Below, piece after piece: positions 23,102 through 32,658 of a stretch of 32,658 nt of DNA. The stretch is taken from contig JAESRW010000165.1 in NCBI GenBank assembly GCA_016764395.1, forward strand, positions 1 to 32,658. Direction: 5' to 3'. Position numbers and translations under genes: made by a program. The stretch is from Flavobacteriales bacterium. GTDB lineage: Bacteria; Bacteroidota; Bacteroidia; NORP154. A model generated the notes under the pieces. The model did no database searches. It was given only the letters and a program-made list of their open reading frames with translations, and was not told the origin of the DNA. The number at the start of each line of letters is the position of its first letter. Within the stretch, counting starts at the first letter, position 1.

Positions 23102-25777
23102 ATGGTTGTTATTAAATATCCGGTAGTTACAGCCTTTTTCTATTGTAAGTATAAAGCATATTTACTTCATAATTTATGTGGGAATTACACACCAACTGAG
23201 TATGAAGTTTTAATAGATAAAACAAAAGAAAAAGTGACGAACTCTTTTTACCAGAAAAACGAGGCTAGCACATATTTCGATGGAATCCTTAAGGAGGGAA
23301 AATATTTGGTCAAAAGTACCAGAATCAATCTCGGCCTCTTTGAATTTGATTGTAACTATCTACTGAAGAAAGAAGGTAAATCCAGGCTAGGAATGCATTT
23401 CTATGAACCCGGGATTTTTATCAGCTCAAACAAAATTTTGAAAGAAGATCGTTTACAGGTAACATATTTAGCCCTATTGCTTCAAAAGATTCAAGGTAAA
23501 TTACCCAGTCAAGCACATATAATATGTCGGGACGGTAAGCCTCACAGGATAAAGATGGGCAAGGCAATAAGTGAAATGAAAATATTACTCGAAGAAATAA
23601 TTCAACTTGAAAAGAACAAACCCAGATTATTTTTGAACAAGCATTGTTCTCAATGTGCCTTCAAAGAAAAATGCAAAGCAAAGGCCATAAAAGACGACAG
23701 TCTTACTTTGCTTAATCGAATTTCAGAGAAGCAAATTCACAAGTATGAAAGAAAGGGCATATTTTCAATTAAGCAACTTTCATTTTTATTTAAACCACGA
23801 AGGAAAAATAAGAGAACTAAGATTCCTATTTACTCTTACAAACCTGAATTGCAGGCATTGGCTATTCGCACAAAAAAAATTTATGTGAGTACATTACCAA
23901 ATTTATACAGGAAACCAATTGAAATTTTTCTTGATATCGAAAGTATTCCAGACGAAGATTTCTTTTACCTTTTTGGAATCCATATTTCCGATGCGAAATC
24001 CACAAAATATCAACCCTTTTGGTCAGATTCAATCGAAGAAGACAAAATGACTTGGATGGGGGTCCTGAAATTATTAAAATCCTATCCAGATTCATGGATA
24101 TATCATTATGGTCACTACGAACCTTATGTCTTTGATGTAATGGCCAAACGTTACGCTACAAATATCGATTGCCTCAAAAATAGGTTTGTAAACCTAAACA
24201 CTTTCATATTTGGTAAAATCTACTTCCCTACTTATTCAAATGGTCTAAAAGAATTATGCCAATCTTTTGGAATGAATTGGTCGAATAAGAAATCTTCCGG
24301 CCTACAAAGCATTGTTTGGCGAAAAAATTGGGAAACTGGAAGGAAAAACTTCAAAGAGACACTACTTCTATATAATAAAGAGGATTGCATGGCATTAAAG
24401 ACACTTTGTAACGAATTGACACGCATTCAAACATATTTCGATACAGCTGCTGATATTGAATCAAGTCAGAATCCCAAAAAAATTGCCTCAAAAAACAGCC
24501 ATAAAATGCATGGCCAATTTAACCTAGTCCTAAAATTTGCTCACAACCAGTACAACAAGAGAAAAATTTCTGTAGACCTTCAAAAAAGTAAGATCAAGAA
24601 GATACAAAAAAAGAAAAAAAGTAAGGGTGGATTTAGATGGTTGGGCAAAAAGCTAAACAAGCCAAACAAATCAATTTTCATGAAGGTTGATGAGTATTGT
24701 CGTAAACACACTGATCAAAAATTAACAAAATCGAAGAAGAAATTTAAAAAGGTGCAAATCGACCTAGTTTTTGGTAAAAATGGGATAAGAAAAACCACAA
24801 TTGAATATGTAGGAGAATGCGGCCATTGCCCCATTTGTAATAATGATTACGCATCTACCAAGTTTAAAGAATTAAGTAGAGAATTGTATAGTCATAATTT
24901 CAAAGCATGGTTTGTTTTCCAAAGAATAGAAATACAATTATCCTTTACCAAAATAAATAAAAGTTTAGTCGGTCTAATTGGTGATAAAGTAGGAGATTCT
25001 ACGGGACCTGAAGTCATTAAATGTTTCAGTTTATATTACAAAGACACAGCTAATCAAATTGTTCTAAATATTCTCAATAGTCCATTTATCCACGCGGATG
25101 AGACTACTGTTAGTATACGAGGTCAGCTTCAATACGTATGGATATTTACCACAGATAAACACGTTTCCTTCGTGTTATCGAAAAGTAGAGATGCGACTGT
25201 TATGAAAGATTTTCTTGCAAATTTTCGAGGGGTTTTGATTACCGATTTTTATGCTGGATATGATGCAATAGAATGTTCTCAACAAAAATGTTGGGTCCAC
25301 TTTATAAGAGATTTAAATAATGCTCTCTGGAAAAATCCATTTGATACAGAGTATGAGGAATTTGTTTCCAAAATTCGGGATATCATAATTCCCATAATTC
25401 AGTCGACATACCGCCATGGTCTAAAAACACGGTTTTTGGCAAAACATCAAAAAAACATCGACAAATTTTACGTTAGTGAAATTGATGATAAAACCTACAG
25501 TTCAGAATTGTGCCAATTATATCAAAAACGGTTTAAGAGGTATCGGAAAAGCCTATTTACATTTACACGGTTTGACGGAATAAGTTGGCACAACAACGCT
25601 GCAGAAAATGGTATTAGACATATTTGTGTACAAAGAAAAATATCAGGTTCCTTTGGAGGAGATCAGTTCCCACATTACCTAAGAATGGTTAGCATCATGA
25701 AAACTTGTAATTTACAGAATAAATCCTTTTTGAAATTTCTTCTTTCTAAACAAATGGATATAGACAGTTATAAATAG
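23102..25777 (+). CDS. RecB/Cas4-like nuclease + DEDD exonuclease-like + IS66-type transposase fusion
   Basis: One 891-aa reading frame with three modules. Residues 1-195 match the TM0106 RecB-like nuclease family: Cys15 with C182, C185 and C191 give the Cas4/AddB-type 4Fe-4S pattern, D83 (FEFD), E102 (YEP) and K111 are candidate metal or catalytic residues, and RLQVTYLALLLQKIQG is the conserved helix. Residues 272-440 are an RNase H/DEDD domain: DIES (D278, E280), YHYGHYEPYVFDVM and YNKEDC (D428). Residues ~570-880 are an IS66-type DDE transposase: a small CxxCxxC knuckle (C573-C579), HADETT (D666), TDFYAGYD (D715), KCWVHFIRDLNN, and NNAAENGIRH (E835). A Lys-rich linker (490-555) joins the parts. 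AT-rich codons set it apart from the core genes. No IS66 helper genes or terminal inverted repeats were found. Confidence 0.85.
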   Translation: MVVIKYPVVTAFFYCKYKAYLLHNLCGNYTPTEYEVLIDKTKEKVTNSFYQKNEASTYFDGILKEGKYLVKSTRINLGLFEFDCNYLLKKEGKSRLGMHFYEPGIFISSNKILKEDRLQVTYLALLLQKIQGKLPSQAHIICRDGKPHRIKMGKAISEMKILLEEIIQLEKNKPRLFLNKHCSQCAFKEKCKAKAIKDDSLTLLNRISEKQIHKYERKGIFSIKQLSFLFKPRRKNKRTKIPIYSYKPELQALAIRTKKIYVSTLPNLYRKPIEIFLDIESIPDEDFFYLFGIHISDAKSTKYQPFWSDSIEEDKMTWMGVLKLLKSYPDSWIYHYGHYEPYVFDVMAKRYATNIDCLKNRFVNLNTFIFGKIYFPTYSNGLKELCQSFGMNWSNKKSSGLQSIVWRKNWETGRKNFKETLLLYNKEDCMALKTLCNELTRIQTYFDTAADIESSQNPKKIASKNSHKMHGQFNLVLKFAHNQYNKRKISVDLQKSKIKKIQKKKKSKGGFRWLGKKLNKPNKSIFMKVDEYCRKHTDQKLTKSKKKFKKVQIDLVFGKNGIRKTTIEYVGECGHCPICNNDYASTKFKELSRELYSHNFKAWFVFQRIEIQLSFTKINKSLVGLIGDKVGDSTGPEVIKCFSLYYKDTANQIVLNILNSPFIHADETTVSIRGQLQYVWIFTTDKHVSFVLSKSRDATVMKDFLANFRGVLITDFYAGYDAIECSQQKCWVHFIRDLNNALWKNPFDTEYEEFVSKIRDIIIPIIQSTYRHGLKTRFLAKHQKNIDKFYVSEIDDKTYSSELCQLYQKRFKRYRKSLFTFTRFDGISWHNNAAENGIRHICVQRKISGSFGGDQFPHYLRMVSIMKTCNLQNKSFLKFLLSKQMDIDSYK

Positions 25778-26148: not shown

Positions 26149-26307
26149 ATGGCTAAACCAATTAAAGAAACACCAGTTCTAAAAGGTAAGGACGCTGTTA
26201 ACTTCATCAAGTCCATGAAGAAGGCGGAAAAGACCAGGGTGGACAAATCTGTCAAAAAAAGGATGACGGATAACTTTAAGAGTTTGAACGCCATCGCCCA
26301 GTTTTAG
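26149..26307 (+). CDS. small basic protein, probable antitoxin of the GNAT toxin
   Basis: A 52-aa protein, MAKPIKETPVLKGKDAV then NFIKSMKKAEKTRV and a helical basic tail ending NAIAQF. It is too small for the DUF1778 ribbon-helix-helix antitoxins that usually pair with TacT-type toxins, and no DNA-binding motif is plain, although the Lys/Arg content is high. Its stop codon TAG shares its last base with the GTG start of the acetyltransferase gene (TAGTG), the tight coupling expected of a toxin-antitoxin pair. It has its own promoter box. An out-of-frame ATG at 26144 was discounted. The function rests on position and size. Confidence 0.7.
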   Translation: MAKPIKETPVLKGKDAVNFIKSMKKAEKTRVDKSVKKRMTDNFKSLNAIAQF

Positions 26308-26837
26308 TGGATTTATCGGAGCTAGCGTTAATACGACTGTCGGACTCCTACCCTATTAAACCATTCGATTGCGGCGATAACGATCTGAACGAATTCCTGC
26401 TAGGCGATTCCAAAAACTACTATTCTCAGTTACTGGCTGTAACTTACCTCCTTGAATTTGCTGAGGAAACGGCTGCATTTTTCAGCCTGCTCAATGACAA
26501 AATTTCAATTGAAGACGCGGATAGTAAAAGAAAGTGGCGGAAGATTTTCAGGGATATAATGCCGGAAGGAAAACGGTTTAAAAGCTATCCTGCGGTAAAA
26601 ATCGGACGACTAGGGGTCGGCAATACTTTTCAGGGTGATGGATTGGGAACCGTTATTTTGGATTATGTAAAAGAATTATTCATTGATAACAACAGGACTG
26701 GCTGCAAATACCTCACTGTGGACGCTTACCTTAGATCATTGAGATTCTACGAAAAAAATGGCTTCGAGTACCTTACCGAGAAAGACAAGGATTCAGAAAC
26801 CCGATTGATGTATTTTGATTTAACTGCGGTTGCTTAA
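26307..26837 (+). CDS. GNAT acetyltransferase, probable toxin (TacT-like)
   Basis: A 176-aa acetyltransferase starting at GTG 26307. The opening DSYPIKPFDCGDNDLNEFL matches the FxCGxxxLDxFL lead-in of TacT/AtaT-type toxins, which acetylate the amino group of charged aminoacyl-tRNAs and block translation. Motif A is RLGVGNTFQGDGLGTVIL (residues 101-118) with the QGxGxG acetyl-CoA loop, and YLRSLRFYEKNGF holds the conserved Tyr148 at the position of the catalytic Tyr in TacT. A charged insertion (residues ~63-92) separates the N-terminal sheet from motif A. The pairing with a 52-aa upstream protein supports a type II module. The target tRNA is unknown. Confidence 0.85.
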   Translation: MDLSELALIRLSDSYPIKPFDCGDNDLNEFLLGDSKNYYSQLLAVTYLLEFAEETAAFFSLLNDKISIEDADSKRKWRKIFRDIMPEGKRFKSYPAVKIGRLGVGNTFQGDGLGTVILDYVKELFIDNNRTGCKYLTVDAYLRSLRFYEKNGFEYLTEKDKDSETRLMYFDLTAVA

Positions 26838-26978: not shown

Positions 26979-28478
26979 ATGGCTAAGAAAAAACAAGAAA
27001 TCAACCCTCGGGAATATATGGAGCTGGCCATATCCGTCATGAACCAATCCATACAGGAACCCCGCGAAGATAAAGTAAGCCCAAAAGTAGGTGCGCTATT
27101 AATAAAACCAGATGGCACCGTAGAATCGGCATGTAGAGGTGAACTGCGCCATGGAGACCATGCCGAATTCACTTTATTGGAACGCATGAATCGCTCTAAT
27201 CCATTAGACGGCTCCATATTATTTGCTACGCTTGAGCCCTGTGCTCCCGGTGCTCGCAAACACCCAAAACTGGGTTGTGCAGAAAGAATAGTAGCTGCAA
27301 GAATTAAAAAAGTTTGGATAGGCATTGAAGATCCAGACCCGGCTGTAGATAGAAAAGGAATCAAATACCTATTGGATAGTGGCGTAGAGGTGGAAATGTT
27401 TGATGCCGATTTGCAGGATGAAATTCGCAAAGCAAACAAGCAATTTATTTTGGAAGCAGAAGAACGGGCGAAAAAAGCAAAAGCAGAACCAATTGCAATT
27501 ATACTGTCCGAAAAGGAACGAGGGGAGCCAACTGCTGATTTAAAAGATCTTTCCTCAGCTAATCTTCATGCGTTCATTAAGAAGGCAAAACTGAACGTAG
27601 AGCTAGACACTCCTCAGTTTAATCGCATCTTCACACAGTTGGGGTTAATGGAAAATAAAGATGGCAAATACCTTCCAACGGGATTAGGTCTTTTACTCTT
27701 TGGAGATAGGCCACAACTCACCTATCCTCACGCCCTGATAAGAGCAACCTTTAAAACTGCGGGCAGAGGCGAAGATATTGATACCATTGAAGGGCCATTA
27801 ATAGAACAAGCTGACAAAATACAAAGCTGGTATGAGGCCCGGATCGGTAAGCAAATAGATCGCTCAAGCTCCAGTCGGAAAACGATTTATGATTATCCTT
27901 TAGTGGTATTTCGAGAGGCCATTATTAATGCTATTGTCCATAGAGACTACGATATTGATGGAGCGCCCATTTATTTTGAAATAAATGATGATGCCATTAT
28001 CATCAAAAGTCCTGGAGAGCCGGTAAAACCATTAAAAATGGAACAGATTAAACGCTTTAATGCACCTTCTCTCAGCCGAAATCCAAAAATCATGTATGTA
28101 TTTGACCAAATGGAATTGGTTGAGCAACGTGGTCTTGGTTTTCAAACGCTTAAGGAACTACCCGAAAAGTTTGACTTGCCACTTCCTTTAGTTTCTTATG
28201 AAGAGCCTTACATGGTATTTACTTTCCCGAGAACAGGTGATGCTTTGAAAGAGGTTTCAAGTAATGAAGGAGTTAAATCACTTACTAACGAGGAGCTAAA
28301 AGGATATAATTGGATTAGATCTCAAGAAGAAGTTGCGACCAAAAATTATGCAGATAAGTTTGAATATACCCAAAGAACCGCAAGCAGACATCTAGCAAAA
28401 ATGCTCGATTTAGAACTTATTGCAACGAATGGTGAAAGTAGCAAATCACCTAAATTAAGATACAGGGCCATTGAATAA
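26979..28478 (+). CDS. deaminase-GHKL ATPase-winged helix fusion protein
   Basis: A 499-aa protein. Residues ~10-160 are a cytidine/RibD-type deaminase: HAE at 61-63 (His ligand, catalytic Glu) and PC at 87-88 with C100 completing the zinc site. Residues ~180-260 are a linker with LSSANLHAFIKK and GLGLLLFGDRP, as in proteins annotated as putative DNA-binding or RecG-C-like. Residues ~300-400 are a HATPase_c_4/RecG-C-type domain: FREAIINAIVHRDY (N box) and EQRGLGF (G box). The C-terminus (~440-480) is a winged helix (EVATKNYADKFEYTQRTASR). No membrane segment. The reaction and the substrate are unknown. Fusion of a base deaminase with a nucleotide-binding sensor in an accessory region suggests a phage-defence or stress role (inference). 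Confidence 0.82.
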   Translation: MAKKKQEINPREYMELAISVMNQSIQEPREDKVSPKVGALLIKPDGTVESACRGELRHGDHAEFTLLERMNRSNPLDGSILFATLEPCAPGARKHPKLGCAERIVAARIKKVWIGIEDPDPAVDRKGIKYLLDSGVEVEMFDADLQDEIRKANKQFILEAEERAKKAKAEPIAIILSEKERGEPTADLKDLSSANLHAFIKKAKLNVELDTPQFNRIFTQLGLMENKDGKYLPTGLGLLLFGDRPQLTYPHALIRATFKTAGRGEDIDTIEGPLIEQADKIQSWYEARIGKQIDRSSSSRKTIYDYPLVVFREAIINAIVHRDYDIDGAPIYFEINDDAIIIKSPGEPVKPLKMEQIKRFNAPSLSRNPKIMYVFDQMELVEQRGLGFQTLKELPEKFDLPLPLVSYEEPYMVFTFPRTGDALKEVSSNEGVKSLTNEELKGYNWIRSQEEVATKNYADKFEYTQRTASRHLAKMLDLELIATNGESSKSPKLRYRAIE

Positions 28479-28636: not shown

Positions 28637-28701
28637 TAAAGGCTAAAGAAGTGAATATACACGGAGGAAGAAACAACGGATACATCCGTCTAATTGGATA
28701 A
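28564..28701 (+). CDS. possible 45-aa small protein
   Basis: ATG at 28564 opens a 45-codon frame with protein-like composition: MSMYVQVSNASANELGHKLR, then HSVQVKAKEVNIHGGRNNGY and IRLIG. It begins inside the 15-bp palindrome and its last four codons overlap the stop end of the convergent minus-strand gene. It may be a real small gene, or the end of a decayed one because the frame stays open upstream to 28523. No family was recognised. Confidence 0.3.
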   Translation: MSMYVQVSNASANELGHKLRHSVQVKAKEVNIHGGRNNGYIRLIG

Positions 28702-29163
28702 TTTACGCCCCAGAACAATCCCCCCAACAAAAATCCCAACCCGCTCTATTCTACGCCAAAACTTCCTACGCCTTCTCTTTCGCTTAACCTCCATATTCCC
28801 CTCATGGTCAATCCTGATGTCCCCATATTCAGGTAGTGGGTATTCAGCAATCAAGGGCAACCCCTCCGGTGTAATAGTATGAATCTTCGCCAATTTAGGC
28901 GTGAGTTCTACGGAAGTTATCAATGTGTCCTTCTCGATACTCTCACGGTACACGGTATCGGTCTTATAAATGTAAATCTTGACTGGCTTTTCAACTTCAA
29001 CCTCTTTGATTACGATTTCCTTGTACGACCTATCAACATAGATAGTATCCGTTTGGATGAGGGTTGGAGCAGGGGAGTACAAACAACCTTCCGTCCAAAA
29101 GAGGTATAAGAGGAGACCACTGGCCAACACTCCCATCACAAAATATGTCACGCCCTGCTTCAT
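28690..29163 (-). CDS. membrane-anchored small protein, distal gene of the prophage-like cassette
   Basis: A 157-aa protein with an N-terminal membrane helix (YFVMGVLASGLLLYLFW), a single Cys at the end of the helix (EGCLY), a strand-rich charged middle (IVIKEVEVEKPVKIYIYKTD), a very basic patch near residue 130 (KRKRRRRKFWRR) and a short hydrophobic end (VGIFVGGIVLG). This layout is seen in small Bacteroidota phage or mobile-element proteins of unknown function. It starts within the stop of the RadC-like gene (ATGA), so the two are coupled. It may be a minor membrane or lysis protein, but that is a guess from context. Confidence 0.7.
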   Translation of the reverse strand: MKQGVTYFVMGVLASGLLLYLFWTEGCLYSPAPTLIQTDTIYVDRSYKEIVIKEVEVEKPVKIYIYKTDTVYRESIEKDTLITSVELTPKLAKIHTITPEGLPLIAEYPLPEYGDIRIDHEGNMEVKRKRRRRKFWRRIERVGIFVGGIVLGRKLSN

Positions 29164-29729
29164 AAATCACCTTCATCTGCAAATGAATAATGCCCTTCTT
29201 TGGTGAGAATAAAATGATCCAACAAAGCAATGTCAATCACTTTACTTGCTTCTTTGACTTTACGGGTCAATGAAAGATCCGCCTCACTTGGTTTCAGATT
29301 CCCGGATGGGTGATTGTGAGCAAGGATGATACTTGAAGCCAACGCCTCCAATGCCACAGAAAAAATCAATCGTATATCTGCGATGGTTCCACTAATACCG
29401 CCTTTGCTCAACAACTGGTAGCCCAATACACGGTTGGAACGATCTAACATCAGCACGACAAATTCTTCTCGGGCTTCAATCTGAGAACTCCAAACTGATC
29501 GCAACACTTCTACAGCTTCAGCAGATCTTGTGATTTTTGGGCGTTCGGAGGTCTTTAGCTTCTTGCTGTATACAATACGGATTTTCGGGGGGCGCAGTTT
29601 TTTGGCTGCACTGCCTAAACCTGCCTGCTTTACATTACGGGTTAAAAACCAAGTGACAATGAGTACGCCTGCTACGGTGTAAAAGGCAATGTTGCCAAGC
29701 TGCTTTCTTTTGGTTTTAGTCAATCGCAT
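29160..29729 (-). CDS. RadC/JAB-domain protein with N-terminal membrane anchor
   Basis: A 189-aa protein. The ATG at 29729 (MRLTKTKRKQ) is preferred because it clears the M15 stop; a GTG at 29768 would add 13 residues and overlap that gene. A membrane helix follows a basic start (IAFYTVAGVLIVTWFL). The C-terminal ~110 residues are a RadC/MPN+ domain: EEFVVLMLDR (upstream Glu), HNHPSG (two His of the zinc site) and SEADLSL with the Asp ligand, i.e. the complete JAMM pattern. Soluble RadC proteins are common on mobile elements, and their role is not settled. A membrane-tethered form is unusual. It overlaps the next gene by 4 nt. Confidence 0.85.
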   Translation of the reverse strand: MRLTKTKRKQLGNIAFYTVAGVLIVTWFLTRNVKQAGLGSAAKKLRPPKIRIVYSKKLKTSERPKITRSAEAVEVLRSVWSSQIEAREEFVVLMLDRSNRVLGYQLLSKGGISGTIADIRLIFSVALEALASSIILAHNHPSGNLKPSEADLSLTRKVKEASKVIDIALLDHFILTKEGHYSFADEGDL

Positions 29730-29733
29730 GGCC

Positions 29734-30366
29734 TTAGGCAAGATTGACGTATTCCCCTTGCCGGTCACCGCTTACATACAGATTTTGTAATTGAGCCAAA
29801 GACCTTCCGAAACGCATTTCAAAATGGGGTTTGTCCTTGATGCTTTTGAAGTCTCCGCCCCAGGCAAAGCCAATGCTTTTCCCAAGTTTGGCAATCTTAC
29901 TCCAGTTGGGGTTGCTCCACAGGGCTTTGCCCTCCTTGATCTCGACCACGTCAATGGCCAGACCGAAGTTGTGCAAACTCTGGCCACCCTTGGCATTGGT
30001 GACTATTTTTCCTCCTTCGCTACCGCTTCGGCGGACACGTCCAGTTTTGGTTCTTCCCTGAGCATATAGCCCGTCCTGCTCACTCCAGGTTCTTAGCGCT
30101 GATGTGACCCTCAGCTTAATACCGAGTTCTCTTTCAGCACGAATTATAAACTCTTTGGCTTTCGCCTGGATAAGTGGATGAAGTGTTCCAATTCGTCTGT
30201 CTGAAACAATGTCCCAGGTCTGTTCCAGGATGAAGTTGATGGTATCCATAGCTAAGCGTTTTAATTGTTTTCGTTTTCTATATGCAATGACTGTAATGAG
30301 CGCCAGTACCAGAGTTATGACAGCATATCCCACTGCGTTGGGCTTGAATTTTATTTCTGATGCCAT
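29734..30366 (-). CDS. M15 family peptidoglycan peptidase with membrane anchor
   Basis: A 210-aa protein. One membrane helix lies at residues ~11-30 (AVGYAVITLVLALITVIAY). The M15 zinc peptidase domain follows: SALRTWSEQDGLYAQGRT (Arg92 region), SLHNFGLAIDVVE (H132 and D139 as zinc ligands) and KPHFEMRFG (H181). Relatives are phage endolysins of the L-alanyl-D-glutamate type and D-Ala-D-Ala carboxypeptidases, which cut peptidoglycan peptides. Attachment through the N-terminus would hold the enzyme on a membrane, either host inner membrane or a virion membrane. It lies in the middle of the minus-strand cassette, 20 bp after the annexin-like gene. Confidence 0.9.
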   Translation of the reverse strand: MASEIKFKPNAVGYAVITLVLALITVIAYRKRKQLKRLAMDTINFILEQTWDIVSDRRIGTLHPLIQAKAKEFIIRAERELGIKLRVTSALRTWSEQDGLYAQGRTKTGRVRRSGSEGGKIVTNAKGGQSLHNFGLAIDVVEIKEGKALWSNPNWSKIAKLGKSIGFAWGGDFKSIKDKPHFEMRFGRSLAQLQNLYVSGDRQGEYVNLA

Positions 30367-30386
30367 AGTTCAATTCTTGCATCCGG

Positions 30387-30815
30387 TTAAGTGGCGATGT
30401 CATGCCAGTTCTGAAAGTCGTCAGCATCCAGTTCCTTTCTTAATCGGTCCGTGAGCGCTTCATTAAATTTCAGGCGGTATGCTGCAGCCACATCCGGAAG
30501 CCTGCCTTTGGTATCTCTTGCTAGTAGTTTGAGTGCTTCTTCATCCGTGCCGTCAAAATCTATCATCGCTTCAAAACCGGAAGGATTGGAAGCTGCCCGG
30601 TACCGTTGTGCCAATTGATTGACATCCTTGCCCTCGTTTCGATTGAACCTCTTTTCACGTCTGTTGGCTTGCCACTTTTTTACTCCACCCTTTATTATGA
30701 CAATCAGGGTGAAGATCACAATCCCGAGCTGCACGAACTTGTTACTCAATACTGCCTTGGTGGCCTTCAAAGCCCCATTTGCTGCCAATGCTATTGCTGG
30801 ATTTCCCAATGCCAT
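30387..30815 (-). CDS. membrane-anchored protein with one annexin-like repeat
   Basis: A 142-aa protein. The first 25 residues are Ala-rich, then comes a membrane helix (FVQLGIVIFTLIVIIKGGV, ~28-46) and a basic stretch (KKWQANRREKRFNR). Residues ~80-140 resemble one annexin repeat: DFDGTDEEALKLLARDTKG matches the GTDE calcium-loop helix start, and VAAAYRLKFNEALTDRLRK followed by ELDADDF matches the Y-x-x-x-F/Y-x-x-x-L...EL...F end of the repeat. The first Gly of the canonical GxGTD loop is missing. Real annexins use four repeats, so a single copy on a membrane anchor is odd. This assignment is from pattern reading only. Confidence 0.7.
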   Translation of the reverse strand: MALGNPAIALAANGALKATKAVLSNKFVQLGIVIFTLIVIIKGGVKKWQANRREKRFNRNEGKDVNQLAQRYRAASNPSGFEAMIDFDGTDEEALKLLARDTKGRLPDVAAAYRLKFNEALTDRLRKELDADDFQNWHDIAT

Positions 30816-30826
30816 ACCTTTTGTTT

Positions 30827-31075
30827 TTAAGAGAATCTTGTGAATGCCTTCCTTGCAATATTCAGGTAGTCTCCCATAGTGAGTTCCTGCCCATCTTCTG
30901 GGGCGACTTCCTTGATAAACTCAATGATCTCCGGGTTCTCAACAATGACATCGACGGCTTGTACCAAATCGTCGTGGTGCATGTTGTCCATTAAGTCCTG
31001 GAATGCCTGGAGCTTTTCTTCTAAAGCCTCGGGGCTCTCAGCTTCGATACTTAGGTTAACCGTATAAGTCTTCAT
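30827..31075 (-). CDS. small acidic protein, function unknown
   Basis: An 82-aa soluble protein starting MKTYTVNLSIEAESPEALEE. A predicted beta strand is followed by acidic amphipathic helices (KLQAFQDLMDNMHHDDLVQA, VIVENPEIIEFIKEVAP). There is no signal, membrane segment or Cys. It is spaced 11 bp from the annexin-like gene and 2 bp after the coiled-coil gene, so it is in the same transcription unit. No family recognised; small size and position suit an accessory or scaffolding protein. Confidence 0.72.
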   Translation of the reverse strand: MKTYTVNLSIEAESPEALEEKLQAFQDLMDNMHHDDLVQAVDVIVENPEIIEFIKEVAPEDGQELTMGDYLNIARKAFTRFS

Positions 31076-31077
31076 TC

Positions 31078-32112
31078 TTAGTTTGTTTTTGATTCTTCGT
31101 ATTGAAAATTGTCATCCTGTTCCTCTGCATTTTGCTCTGGTTCGAACTTAGCTGGAGGTTCCTGTTCAGTTAAGGGTTCTTCTTCGGATAAATCCACGGT
31201 GGACATGTCAGGTAACACCTCGTCGATCACATTCGGAACATGCTCCTGCTCTTCATACTTGGCGATCTCTTCTTCAATCTCCTGATCTAAATCATCCGTG
31301 TTGTGATTAGGATCGGGCTCAATGGAGAACTTTACTTTACTCCGTTTCCTGGGCTTTTCTTGTTCTTTGTCCGTGCTGCCTAATCCTTTCTCTGGGTTCC
31401 TTGCGCTGTCCTTGATCCAGTCCTTTACCATGCCTCCCAATGCATTGGGAATTACTTTCAAATATCCCTTTACATCGTCCTGGATCTCCCGCTGCTTTTC
31501 ATCGATCGACTGTTCAGCGAGTGCCAGGGTATGTTCCCTTTCGTTAAGGCGGTTTTCACGCTCTGCCAGTAGCATTTCCTTAAACTTGATGTTTTGCTCG
31601 ATCAGCTTGTTGTGCATGTCCTGTTTCATGCCTTCGTTCTTCAGCTCGTACTCTTTGCGCAAGCCGGTCAACTGCATATCCAGTTCATCCTTGAAGGCAA
31701 AGGGTTCCGCCTGAAGGACTCTTGGTTCAGGAGCCGGCTCTGGAGCCGATGTGGTGAGGTTGATATTGACATTTCCGTGTTTGTCCACGTCATGGGGCAC
31801 TCCGTTTATCTTGACCGTTTCATCAGATTCAGGTTCTAACCAGTCAATTTCTTCATTGATCTTGATAAAAAAGGGTGGGTTCTGTCTTGCAGACTGCTCG
31901 TTTGTACCGTATTTGATCTGCACTTCTGCATCTACACCGTCACTTATAATCTTATCAAGCACTTCAGAGAATGACTTGCTTTCCGGATTATTTTCATCTA
32001 CCGCGTTTATGGTGACGCCGTTATCATCCTTGACAGACCAGTACTTGTAGCGGGTGACCTTCTTTTTGGCCAGCTCAGCGTTGATATAGTTCTTAACTTT
32101 CTGCATTGTCAT
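31078..32112 (-). CDS. coiled-coil protein of the prophage-like cassette
   Basis: A 344-aa soluble protein. Residues ~1-115 form a mixed alpha/beta head (RYKYWSVKDDNGVTINAVDE, then FFIKINEEIDWLEP). A Pro/Ala linker (TSAPEPAPEPRV) leads into a long coiled coil, ~140-215 (GMKQDMHNKLIEQNIKFKEM, EHTLALAEQSIDEKQREIQD). A short amphipathic helix (IPNALGGMVKDWIKDSA) and a strongly acidic tail complete it. The start overlaps the preceding 133-aa gene by 20 nt; ATG at 32106 is an alternative. The head-rod-tail build would suit a scaffold, spike or structural protein, but no family was recognised. Confidence 0.75.
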   Translation of the reverse strand: MTMQKVKNYINAELAKKKVTRYKYWSVKDDNGVTINAVDENNPESKSFSEVLDKIISDGVDAEVQIKYGTNEQSARQNPPFFIKINEEIDWLEPESDETVKINGVPHDVDKHGNVNINLTTSAPEPAPEPRVLQAEPFAFKDELDMQLTGLRKEYELKNEGMKQDMHNKLIEQNIKFKEMLLAERENRLNEREHTLALAEQSIDEKQREIQDDVKGYLKVIPNALGGMVKDWIKDSARNPEKGLGSTDKEQEKPRKRSKVKFSIEPDPNHNTDDLDQEIEEEIAKYEEQEHVPNVIDEVLPDMSTVDLSEEEPLTEQEPPAKFEPEQNAEEQDDNFQYEESKTN

Positions 32113-32494
32113 CAGTAAATGTTACTCTTACATACCGAATGAAGAAGCCCGTTTTCTCTCCTACAAATCTGATCTTTACATTGCTCCAATGACGGCTGAT
32201 AAGTGGGCTTTCTATGTAATCGTAGTAGTTAATGGAGCTTTGGATTTTAGCCCGGTAATAGACCCTTGTGTTCTCTCGGTTGTAGCTGACCTTAGTAGTC
32301 CCTGAAACCAAATCGACCGTAAACGGATCTCGCTGCTTGGTGGAGAAATAGCAGACATACACAGCTTCGTTTGCGCCTACTTTGATCTGTTTAGGGTTTT
32401 CTGCTAATTCATCAGTCATATAGAAACAGGTAATGCCCTTTGTGAGCATGTCCTGTTTGATCATTTCCGTAAGCAGCGTATCGTTGGTATTCAT
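32093..32494 (-). CDS. 133-aa protein of the prophage-like cassette, beta-rich
   Basis: A 133-aa protein without signal or membrane segment. A helical start (NTNDTLLTEMIKQDMLTKGI) is followed by alternating strands (EAVYVCYFSTKQRDPFTVDL, NTRVYYRAKIQSSINYYDYI, VKIRFVGEKTGFFIRYVRVT). The beta-sandwich look is compatible with a small structural or capsid-accessory protein, but this is inference. Its ATG overlaps the stop of the upstream partial gene by 4 nt (ATGA) and its end overlaps the coiled-coil gene by 20 nt, so the whole set is translationally coupled. Confidence 0.75.
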   Translation of the reverse strand: MNTNDTLLTEMIKQDMLTKGITCFYMTDELAENPKQIKVGANEAVYVCYFSTKQRDPFTVDLVSGTTKVSYNRENTRVYYRAKIQSSINYYDYIESPLISRHWSNVKIRFVGEKTGFFIRYVRVTFTDDNAES

Positions 32495-32658
32495 CGGCTT
32501 TCAATTATCAGATACACATTGGCTCTCTGTTTGGTACGGCTCGTTACCATGCCTCTAATCACTTGTCCATGCAGCTCCAACCATGTCTTAACAATCCGGC
32601 TGTCAGGGGAGAAGTGGGGAGCATTGCCCGAAACATTCTGGTTGAATTTCAAATCGGT
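32491..32658 (-). CDS. C-terminal 55 residues of a gene cut by the right edge
   Basis: The frame is open from the right edge to TGA at 32491-32493. The visible end includes FNQNVSGNAPHFSPDSRIVK and TWLELHGQVIRGMVTSRTKQ, and it finishes ANVYLIIESR. It continues the overlapping minus-strand series, so it belongs to the same operon. The fragment is too short to identify; the polar strand-turn pattern would suit a virion or other structural protein. Confidence 0.7.
   Translation of the reverse strand, partial: TDLKFNQNVSGNAPHFSPDSRIVKTWLELHGQVIRGMVTSRTKQRANVYLIIESR

Follow-up and report, generated by a model that had tools for sequence, protein, structure and literature searches.

Probable Late Genes of an Integrated, SSIP-1-Related Virus-Like Element in a Flavobacteriales Genome

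Introduction

The window, by which we mean the whole stretch of DNA analyzed here, comprises the 32,658 nucleotides of contig C175 (JAESRW010000165.1) of a metagenome-assembled Bacteroidota genome, that of a Flavobacteriales bacterium (GCA_016764395.1; 5.18 Mb in 330 contigs, 92% complete). Its right end (28690–32658, minus strand) carries a cassette of eight small genes, which an earlier note made from the letters of the DNA had proposed to be late genes of a tailless, membrane-containing virus whose capsid and packaging genes, if any, would lie further to the right. The window is the entire contig, and therefore no sequence to the right of the cassette exists within it; that region is represented by a second copy of the cassette in the same genome and by relatives in other genomes. 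We conclude with good, though not full, confidence that the cassette holds the late genes, for virion and lysis, of an integrated virus-like element of a lineage related to Salisaeta icosahedral phage 1 (SSIP-1), probably tailless and membrane-containing.

The Cassette and Its Second Copy

All eight open reading frames of the cassette were found where the earlier note had placed them. They encode 157, 202, 210, 142, 82, 344, and 133 amino acids (aa) and, at the open contig end, 55 aa of a truncated protein (Table 1), and neighboring genes are joined throughout by overlaps of 4–35 bp or gaps of 2–20 bp, in keeping with the overlapping or near-abutting layout described before. N-terminal hydrophobic spans occur in the 157-aa, RadC-like 202-aa, M15 210-aa, and 142-aa proteins, which bears out the earlier count of four membrane-anchored proteins including a lysin. 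Pfam upheld the M15 and RadC assignments and yielded nothing else of significance among the cassette proteins; the catalytic motifs of the M15 protein (SLHNFGLAID and PHFE) and the RadC-like motif (HNHPSG...D) are intact. A PHROG scan added an endolysin label to the M15 protein, whose family profile also matches the endolysin of P23-77 (6.1e-21). The 344-aa protein, in which a coiled coil is predicted as the earlier note had it, shows weak profile similarity to family F7, which takes the equivalent position in larger relatives, and the truncated 109-aa protein is a paralog of a 120-aa protein found throughout the family (hhalign, 92% to F3). The 157-aa protein may be spanin-like, to judge by position only.

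The second copy of the cassette (C5, 3350–7306) is 88% identical to the first over 3.94 kb. Ratios of nonsynonymous to synonymous substitution (dN/dS) between the two lie at 0.02–0.17 in the seven genes that are complete and at 0.38 in the partial one of 55 codons; the low values indicate that the genes are real and under selection, and the existence of a second copy together with purifying selection on the complete genes shows that the cassette is not a product of chance. Upstream of the cassette, C5 carries the 109-aa gene in full, the 120-aa gene, and then genes for a coiled-coil protein (158 aa), a 216-aa protein, and a basic protein of at least 505 aa, so that this copy runs beyond the end of the window's contig to a transglutaminase-like protein and the 216-aa protein. 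No fitting Pfam or PHROG family was found for the 216-, 120-, and 109-aa proteins. The M15 gene of the window differs from the C5 copy by an in-frame insertion of about 30 bp (30009–30037) that resembles TCCGCCGAAGCGATAGCGAAGGAGGA and recurs twice on contig C83. The 29-bp matches on C83 had the look of a CRISPR spacer, an explanation that was rejected in favor of a short dispersed repeat lying within the coding frame.

Decayed pieces of the last cassette gene are present on contigs C4 and C235, and a transglutaminase fragment on C288, from which repeated invasion of this genome follows. The decayed cassette-gene fragments of this genome (L008, 9137–9319; L009, 12654–12845; L098, 471–758) represent older insertions.

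The Gene Module Across Bacteroidota

Among 395 genomes sampled from the class, 38 have relatives of the 505-aa protein and 42 have matches to the 216-aa profile, and 35 contain genes for both the transglutaminase-fold protein and the 216-aa protein, the capsid candidate discussed below. The latter lies downstream of the former, on the same strand and within 3 kb, at 48 of 53 transglutaminase loci. The module is found in roughly 10% of the class genomes, frequently more than once in the same genome. In two branches a common order begins with a membrane protein, the transglutaminase-fold protein, a 216–246-aa protein, and a 120–130-aa beta protein, and continues with one to three small proteins, a 270–450-aa protein, a 58–82-aa protein, a single-span protein, a lysin, and small membrane proteins. 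The search for the gene order of the cassette that the earlier note had suggested was fruitful, in that Aquimarina and further Flavobacteriales show it too; the loci most closely related to the window copy come from Aquimarina, Flavobacteriales, and one Saprospiraceae metagenome-assembled genome. The full-length Aquimarina transglutaminase protein combines LPD1 and transglutaminase-like domains, and all or nearly all members of the family retain a Cys/His/Asp set; the family profile matched no sequence of the PDB.

Larger relatives carry additional genes. A representative one, in genome G033, has a serine integrase at one end and an XRE/ImmA-type repressor at the other, about 26 kb apart, and contains an amidase endolysin, a RadC-headed polyvalent protein, and an ATPase, while PHROG scans of it revealed no portal, terminase, tail, or type IV secretion system (T4SS) family. 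Module relatives occur both integrated and on circular plasmids: two dissimilar circular Persicobacter plasmids of about 50 kb, pPP10 (L074/L106) and JZB09-Plasmid11 (L107), carry the structural module and the ATPase, and both are typed as non-mobilizable. In their general appearance these plasmids resemble phage-plasmids. The genome of Aquimarina mytili contains a small ATPase-less element (L059) and two larger ATPase-bearing ones (L088, L089) of the same lineage. No exact attachment (att) repeat of 14 nt or longer was detected in the stretches flanking the Aquimarina elements that were examined.

PHROG and Pfam scans of the elements found no terminase, portal, tail, or baseplate genes, in agreement with the earlier remark that a tail-type protein is missing, and likewise no relaxase, coupling protein, or T4SS. 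Such tail or conjugation genes were also sought to the right of the cassette, by way of the second copy and the relatives, and none turned up there.

Relationship to SSIP-1 and the Packaging ATPase

According to reviews, SSIP-1 is a membrane-containing virus of T=49 whose capsid proteins, of two types, follow the PRD1-adenovirus architecture and possibly have a single jelly roll (PMC6356626, PMC6260650), and it was described as having hardly any similarity to other sequences (PMC6356626). The transglutaminase-fold family is related to SSIP-1 gp34 (tblastn, 1e-6; hmmsearch, 3.7e-18; hhalign, 98%), which is annotated as structural in its record. The ATPase downstream of the module in the larger members matches gp40 (blastp, 3.5e-13 and 1.8e-14), annotated as a structural ATPase, with alignment at the Walker A, EE, DSV, and H.VD positions, and a third, weak match concerns gp43 (3.6e-5). 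Homologs of gp40 are present in the larger members and in both Persicobacter plasmids. Among the element genes of the window branch, a classical Walker A motif was found only in a VapE-like helicase, and no SSIP-1-type ATPase was seen near the module in the loci examined; this branch may therefore package its DNA differently or depend on a larger relative. The FtsK/HerA-type packaging ATPase that the earlier note had anticipated did not appear; what the larger relatives have is a RadA-like ATPase related to gp40. An ATPase-like match on contig C25 of the window's own genome lies outside the module in another context and was set aside.

Predicted Folds of the Capsid Candidates

A model of the 216-aa family, built from twelve sequences, consists of N-terminal helices followed from residue 61 by a beta sandwich, a single jelly roll of about 150 residues. 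In VIA-align comparisons the top chain was the capsid protein of Sulfolobus polyhedral virus 1 (SPV1; Z 8.4, 3.7 Å over 143 residues), followed by capsid proteins of PBCV-1, EhV-201, Faustovirus, SH1, HCIV-1, HHIV-2, and an iridovirus, and the top ten chains are all capsid structures of icosahedral viruses. The predicted fold fits an upright single-jelly-roll capsid protein, and the 216-aa protein can be regarded, with moderate support from this model of moderate confidence, as a single-jelly-roll capsid candidate. The double-jelly-roll capsid protein foreseen by the earlier note did not materialize, as the candidate models as one jelly roll and has no profile match to the FLiP and PM2 capsid proteins; its profile also matched no PDB sequence. 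A 211-aa viral model (I1ZBH9) was among the BFVD matches and may come from SSIP-1.

The fold prediction called for in the case of the 133-aa protein gave a helix and a small jelly roll (AlphaFold2; predicted local distance difference test score, pLDDT, 85.7; predicted template modeling score, pTM, 0.77). Lower-ranking matches of this model include SPV1 (Z 6.1), KHP30 (Z 5.4), and the FLiP penton (Z 5.2), and the protein is possibly a penton or minor capsid protein.

Integration in tRNA-Arg(ACG) and Extent of the Element

The integrated element starts at position 22276 of the window, 6.4 kb to the left of the cassette, where a host tRNA-Arg(ACG) gene is broken. Its 3′ half adjoins a tyrosine integrase gene on contig C48 of the same assembly, followed by genes for two helix-turn-helix (HTH) proteins, one excisionase-like and a second, small one, and for a 170-aa protein and a VapE-like helicase; in Aquimarina the structural module is preceded by genes in this order. 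Joined at the shared 15-nt core, the two halves give a 75-nt tRNA-Arg(acg) accepted by ARAGORN, which finds none in either end alone, and in a sister genome of the same genus (G414, L102) the 75-nt tRNA is intact beside the same host gene and identical across the junction. An integrase, att sites, and an empty site in a relative are all at hand. Because the tRNA halves with their shared core join in this way and are intact in the relative, the element probably runs from 22276 to the right end of the window, on through an unassembled gap, and into C48, where it takes up 4.6 kb; with the gap put at about 6 kb by analogy with relatives, its size is estimated at about 21 kb. The TTTGCAAA repeats inside the element end, which have similar counterparts beside the C48 integrase (4072, 4083), are possible integrase arm sites.

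The intact tRNA-Arg(ACG) gene inside the element end most likely replaces the split one. No other Arg(ACG) gene was found in the assembly, and losing the element might for that reason be costly; the assembly is 92% complete, and another copy is therefore possible. Short repeats, AGCACCAGGGATCAGCGTAGCAAA and AATCCCTCCACGCTCACTA, were also observed near tRNA genes and att ends (window 22601; L099, 3480–4130).

Interpretation and Alternatives

These observations indicate that the element is probably a virus or a virus-derived satellite within a broad SSIP-1-related lineage. The central proposal of the earlier note, that these are late genes of a tailless virus and that any capsid genes lie to their right, gains from the C5 copy, which has both the jelly-roll capsid candidate and the gp34 homolog at that place, and from the lack of tail genes. 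Support is strong for gene content and mobility, moderate for the capsid fold, and unproven for particles. In the proposed cycle, the integrase would recombine the 15-nt tRNA core and the VapE-like helicase would drive replication; the 216-aa jelly-roll protein would form the shell, with the 133-aa and 120/109-aa beta proteins as putative vertex or minor capsid proteins. An internal membrane, whose presence in the virion is suggested by several single-span proteins only, would hold these proteins. The transglutaminase-fold protein would be a component of the virion that processes or crosslinks protein, and its LPD1 part may enter with the delivered DNA, while the anchored M15 enzyme and its neighbors would open the cell wall. 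A more specific proposal, which we advance tentatively and consider rather doubtful as a whole, is that window-type elements may represent a new kind of temperate virus without a tail, or of satellite that forms capsids. Such an element would split the host tRNA-Arg gene in its anticodon loop while supplying a tRNA to replace it, and its DNA would be packaged with no motor ATPase at all or with that of a larger SSIP-1-like relative.

Several points weigh against a virus-like element of this kind. Its particles, induction, and excision are putative, and a contig gap intervenes, the link between window and C48 consisting only of the tRNA halves and the gene order in relatives. The model of the capsid candidate is middling (pLDDT 68.5, pTM 0.65), its Z of 8.4 is at the edge of the range reached by common beta folds, and Foldseek returned no PDB match below 1e-3, which makes the SPV1-type match a good lead, short of proof. 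No family has significant sequence similarity to the capsid proteins of FLiP, PM2, or P23-77, and the 133-aa model is matched best by pentameric nucleoplasmins (Z 7–8), not by capsids. In the window branch the connection to SSIP-1 consists of one domain of one protein (gp34), and no gp40-like ATPase was seen next to the module in the loci covered, which run unbroken from the HTH genes to the lysin, with part of the window's own element unassembled.

The missing ATPase bears directly on whether the window-type element is instead a capsid-encoding satellite, a small parasite using the ATPase of larger SSIP-1-like elements. Except for the capsid, the gene set is like that of a phage satellite; an SSIP-1-type ATPase was not seen in the window branch, and A. 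mytili combines the small type with two larger ATPase-bearing copies. Yet the window's genome shows no large module-bearing element (the C25 match belongs to another context), some known tailless viruses (FLiP and the Odin group) also do without a packaging ATPase (PMC5894146), and helper dependence is hypothetical; we judge this explanation unlikely. Polyvalent proteins of the RadC and SMS/RadA kinds were located by Iyer et al. (2017) mainly in conjugative elements or plasmids of Bacteroidetes (PMC5512222), and two members of the present family are annotated as plasmids, as a non-viral integrative element or plasmid, for instance a conjugative one, with merely virus-like polyvalent proteins would have it. 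This is improbable given that no relaxase, coupling protein, or T4SS gene was found, that both plasmids are typed non-mobilizable, and that endolysins and a jelly-roll operon are present; at least some of the proteins of Iyer et al. may be members of this virus-like family.

Strong purifying selection in both copies and patchy relics elsewhere in the genome would also suit a domesticated remnant, virus genes retained by the host as a bacteriocin-like particle or gene-transfer agent, but the intact integrase and helicase, the empty site in the same genus, and the wide, scattered occurrence speak for mobility and make domestication very improbable. Slighter still are the prospects of a FLiP- or PhiCjT23-like single-stranded DNA (ssDNA) phage with a double-jelly-roll capsid. 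It would share hosts, a similar small structural-gene operon, and a virion-borne lytic enzyme with the element, and FLiP itself lacks a packaging ATPase (PMC5894146), but the capsid candidate models as one jelly roll, no profile match to the FLiP proteome was significant, and no rolling-circle Rep was recognized, a VapE-like helicase and a tyrosine integrase being found instead. That the cassette is a fragment of a tailed prophage is hardly credible: M15 endolysin and RadC genes are known from tailed prophages too, but no terminase, portal, tail, or baseplate family was found in any element scanned, including a larger one bounded by a repressor and an integrase.

Other Genes of the Element

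Between the att end and the cassette lie plus-strand cargo genes (Table 1). The 891-aa frame presumably belongs to the element, and its stretch is low in GC (0.33). The 52-aa protein and the acetyltransferase suggest a toxin–antitoxin-like arrangement. The cytidine-deaminase domain is fused to the RecG-C/HATPase_c_4 protein, for which PADLOC found similarity to proteins of Argonaute-type defense systems.

Table 1. Features of the element within the window.
Feature	Position	Strand	Remarks
5′ half of host tRNA-Arg(ACG), broken by insertion (att end)	22249..22290	+	3′ half on C48
15-nt attachment core CTTGACTACGGATCA, anticodon stem-loop	22276..22290	.	repeated on C48
TTTGCAAA repeats inside element end	22327..22366	.	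similar repeats beside C48 integrase
Intact tRNA-Arg(ACG), ~100 bp inside element end	22390..22464	+	not at empty sites of relatives
RecB/Cas4-like nuclease, RNase_H_2, and IS66 transposase domains, single 891-aa frame	23102..25777	+	
52-aa basic protein and GNAT acetyltransferase	26149..26837	+	
Cytidine-deaminase domain and RecG-C/HATPase_c_4 protein	26979..28478	+	
157-aa membrane-anchored protein, last late gene	28690..29163	-	basic C-terminus; homologs in L035, L057, L007
RadC-like JAB-domain protein, N-terminal membrane span	29160..29768	-	Pfam PF04002, 1.7e-38
Membrane-anchored M15 (VanY-like) endolysin	29734..30366	-	Pfam PF13539, 4.7e-14; PHROG, 2.9e-41
142-aa single-span membrane protein, family F1	30387..30815	-	kept in all branches
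82-aa small protein	30827..31075	-	58–60-aa gene at same position in other branches
344-aa protein	31078..32112	-	predicted coiled coil
133-aa protein, helix and small jelly roll	32093..32494	-	AlphaFold2 model
55 aa of 109-aa protein, cut at contig end	32491..32658	-	full-length in L007, 3188–3517

Comparison With Known Systems

The capsid candidate had no tblastn match in 50,697 phage records, nor did a transglutaminase protein of the larger branch match any of them; the full-length Aquimarina transglutaminase protein matches SSIP-1, and its polyvalent part several tailed phages. Queries with four capsid genes and one transglutaminase gene matched 2 of 2.9 million IMG/VR contigs, with no match to either the window-type or the L038-type capsid candidate. 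The literature yielded no account of such elements, subscription papers being mostly outside the coverage. If particles are made, a common type of Bacteroidota prophage has been overlooked, and the cultured Aquimarina strains and circular Persicobacter plasmids make direct testing possible.

The window element resembles PICI-type satellites (phage-inducible chromosomal islands) in the module at one end, which combines an integrase with a VapE-like helicase and an excisionase-like HTH protein; it differs in having its own candidate capsid, vertex, and lysis genes, any dependence on a helper being hypothetical. With the Flavobacterium ssDNA phages FLiP and PhiCjT23 it shares Bacteroidota hosts, a small structural operon, and a virion-linked lytic enzyme; prophage forms of PhiCjT23 are known, and the FLiP penton is weakly resembled by the 133-aa model (Z 5.2). 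In contrast, the double-jelly-roll capsid, ssDNA genome, and rolling-circle Rep of these phages were not found in the element.

The vertical single-jelly-roll capsid proteins of SPV1 (Portogloboviridae) and of SH1, HCIV-1, and HHIV-2 (Sphaerolipoviridae) are the best matches to the candidate model (Z 8.4 and 6.7–6.9, respectively), although they have no sequence similarity to it. These viruses infect archaea and have other replication and packaging genes. The predicted upright single-jelly-roll type of capsid is known mainly from archaeal and Thermus viruses.

SSIP-1, whose host belongs to the broader Bacteroidetes group, is likewise without tail genes, and its gp34 and its RadA/KaiC-like virion ATPase gp40 have clear homologs here, the latter in the larger members only. 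It differs in showing no sequence similarity to the capsid candidate, the beta-rich neighbors, or the lysins of this family, and its genome measures 43.8 kb as against an estimated 21 kb or so for the window-type element, which has a VapE-like helicase and in which a gp40-like ATPase was not seen. Through these elements SSIP-1, nearly isolated in sequence, gains a large group of relatives in about one-tenth of the sampled genomes of the class.

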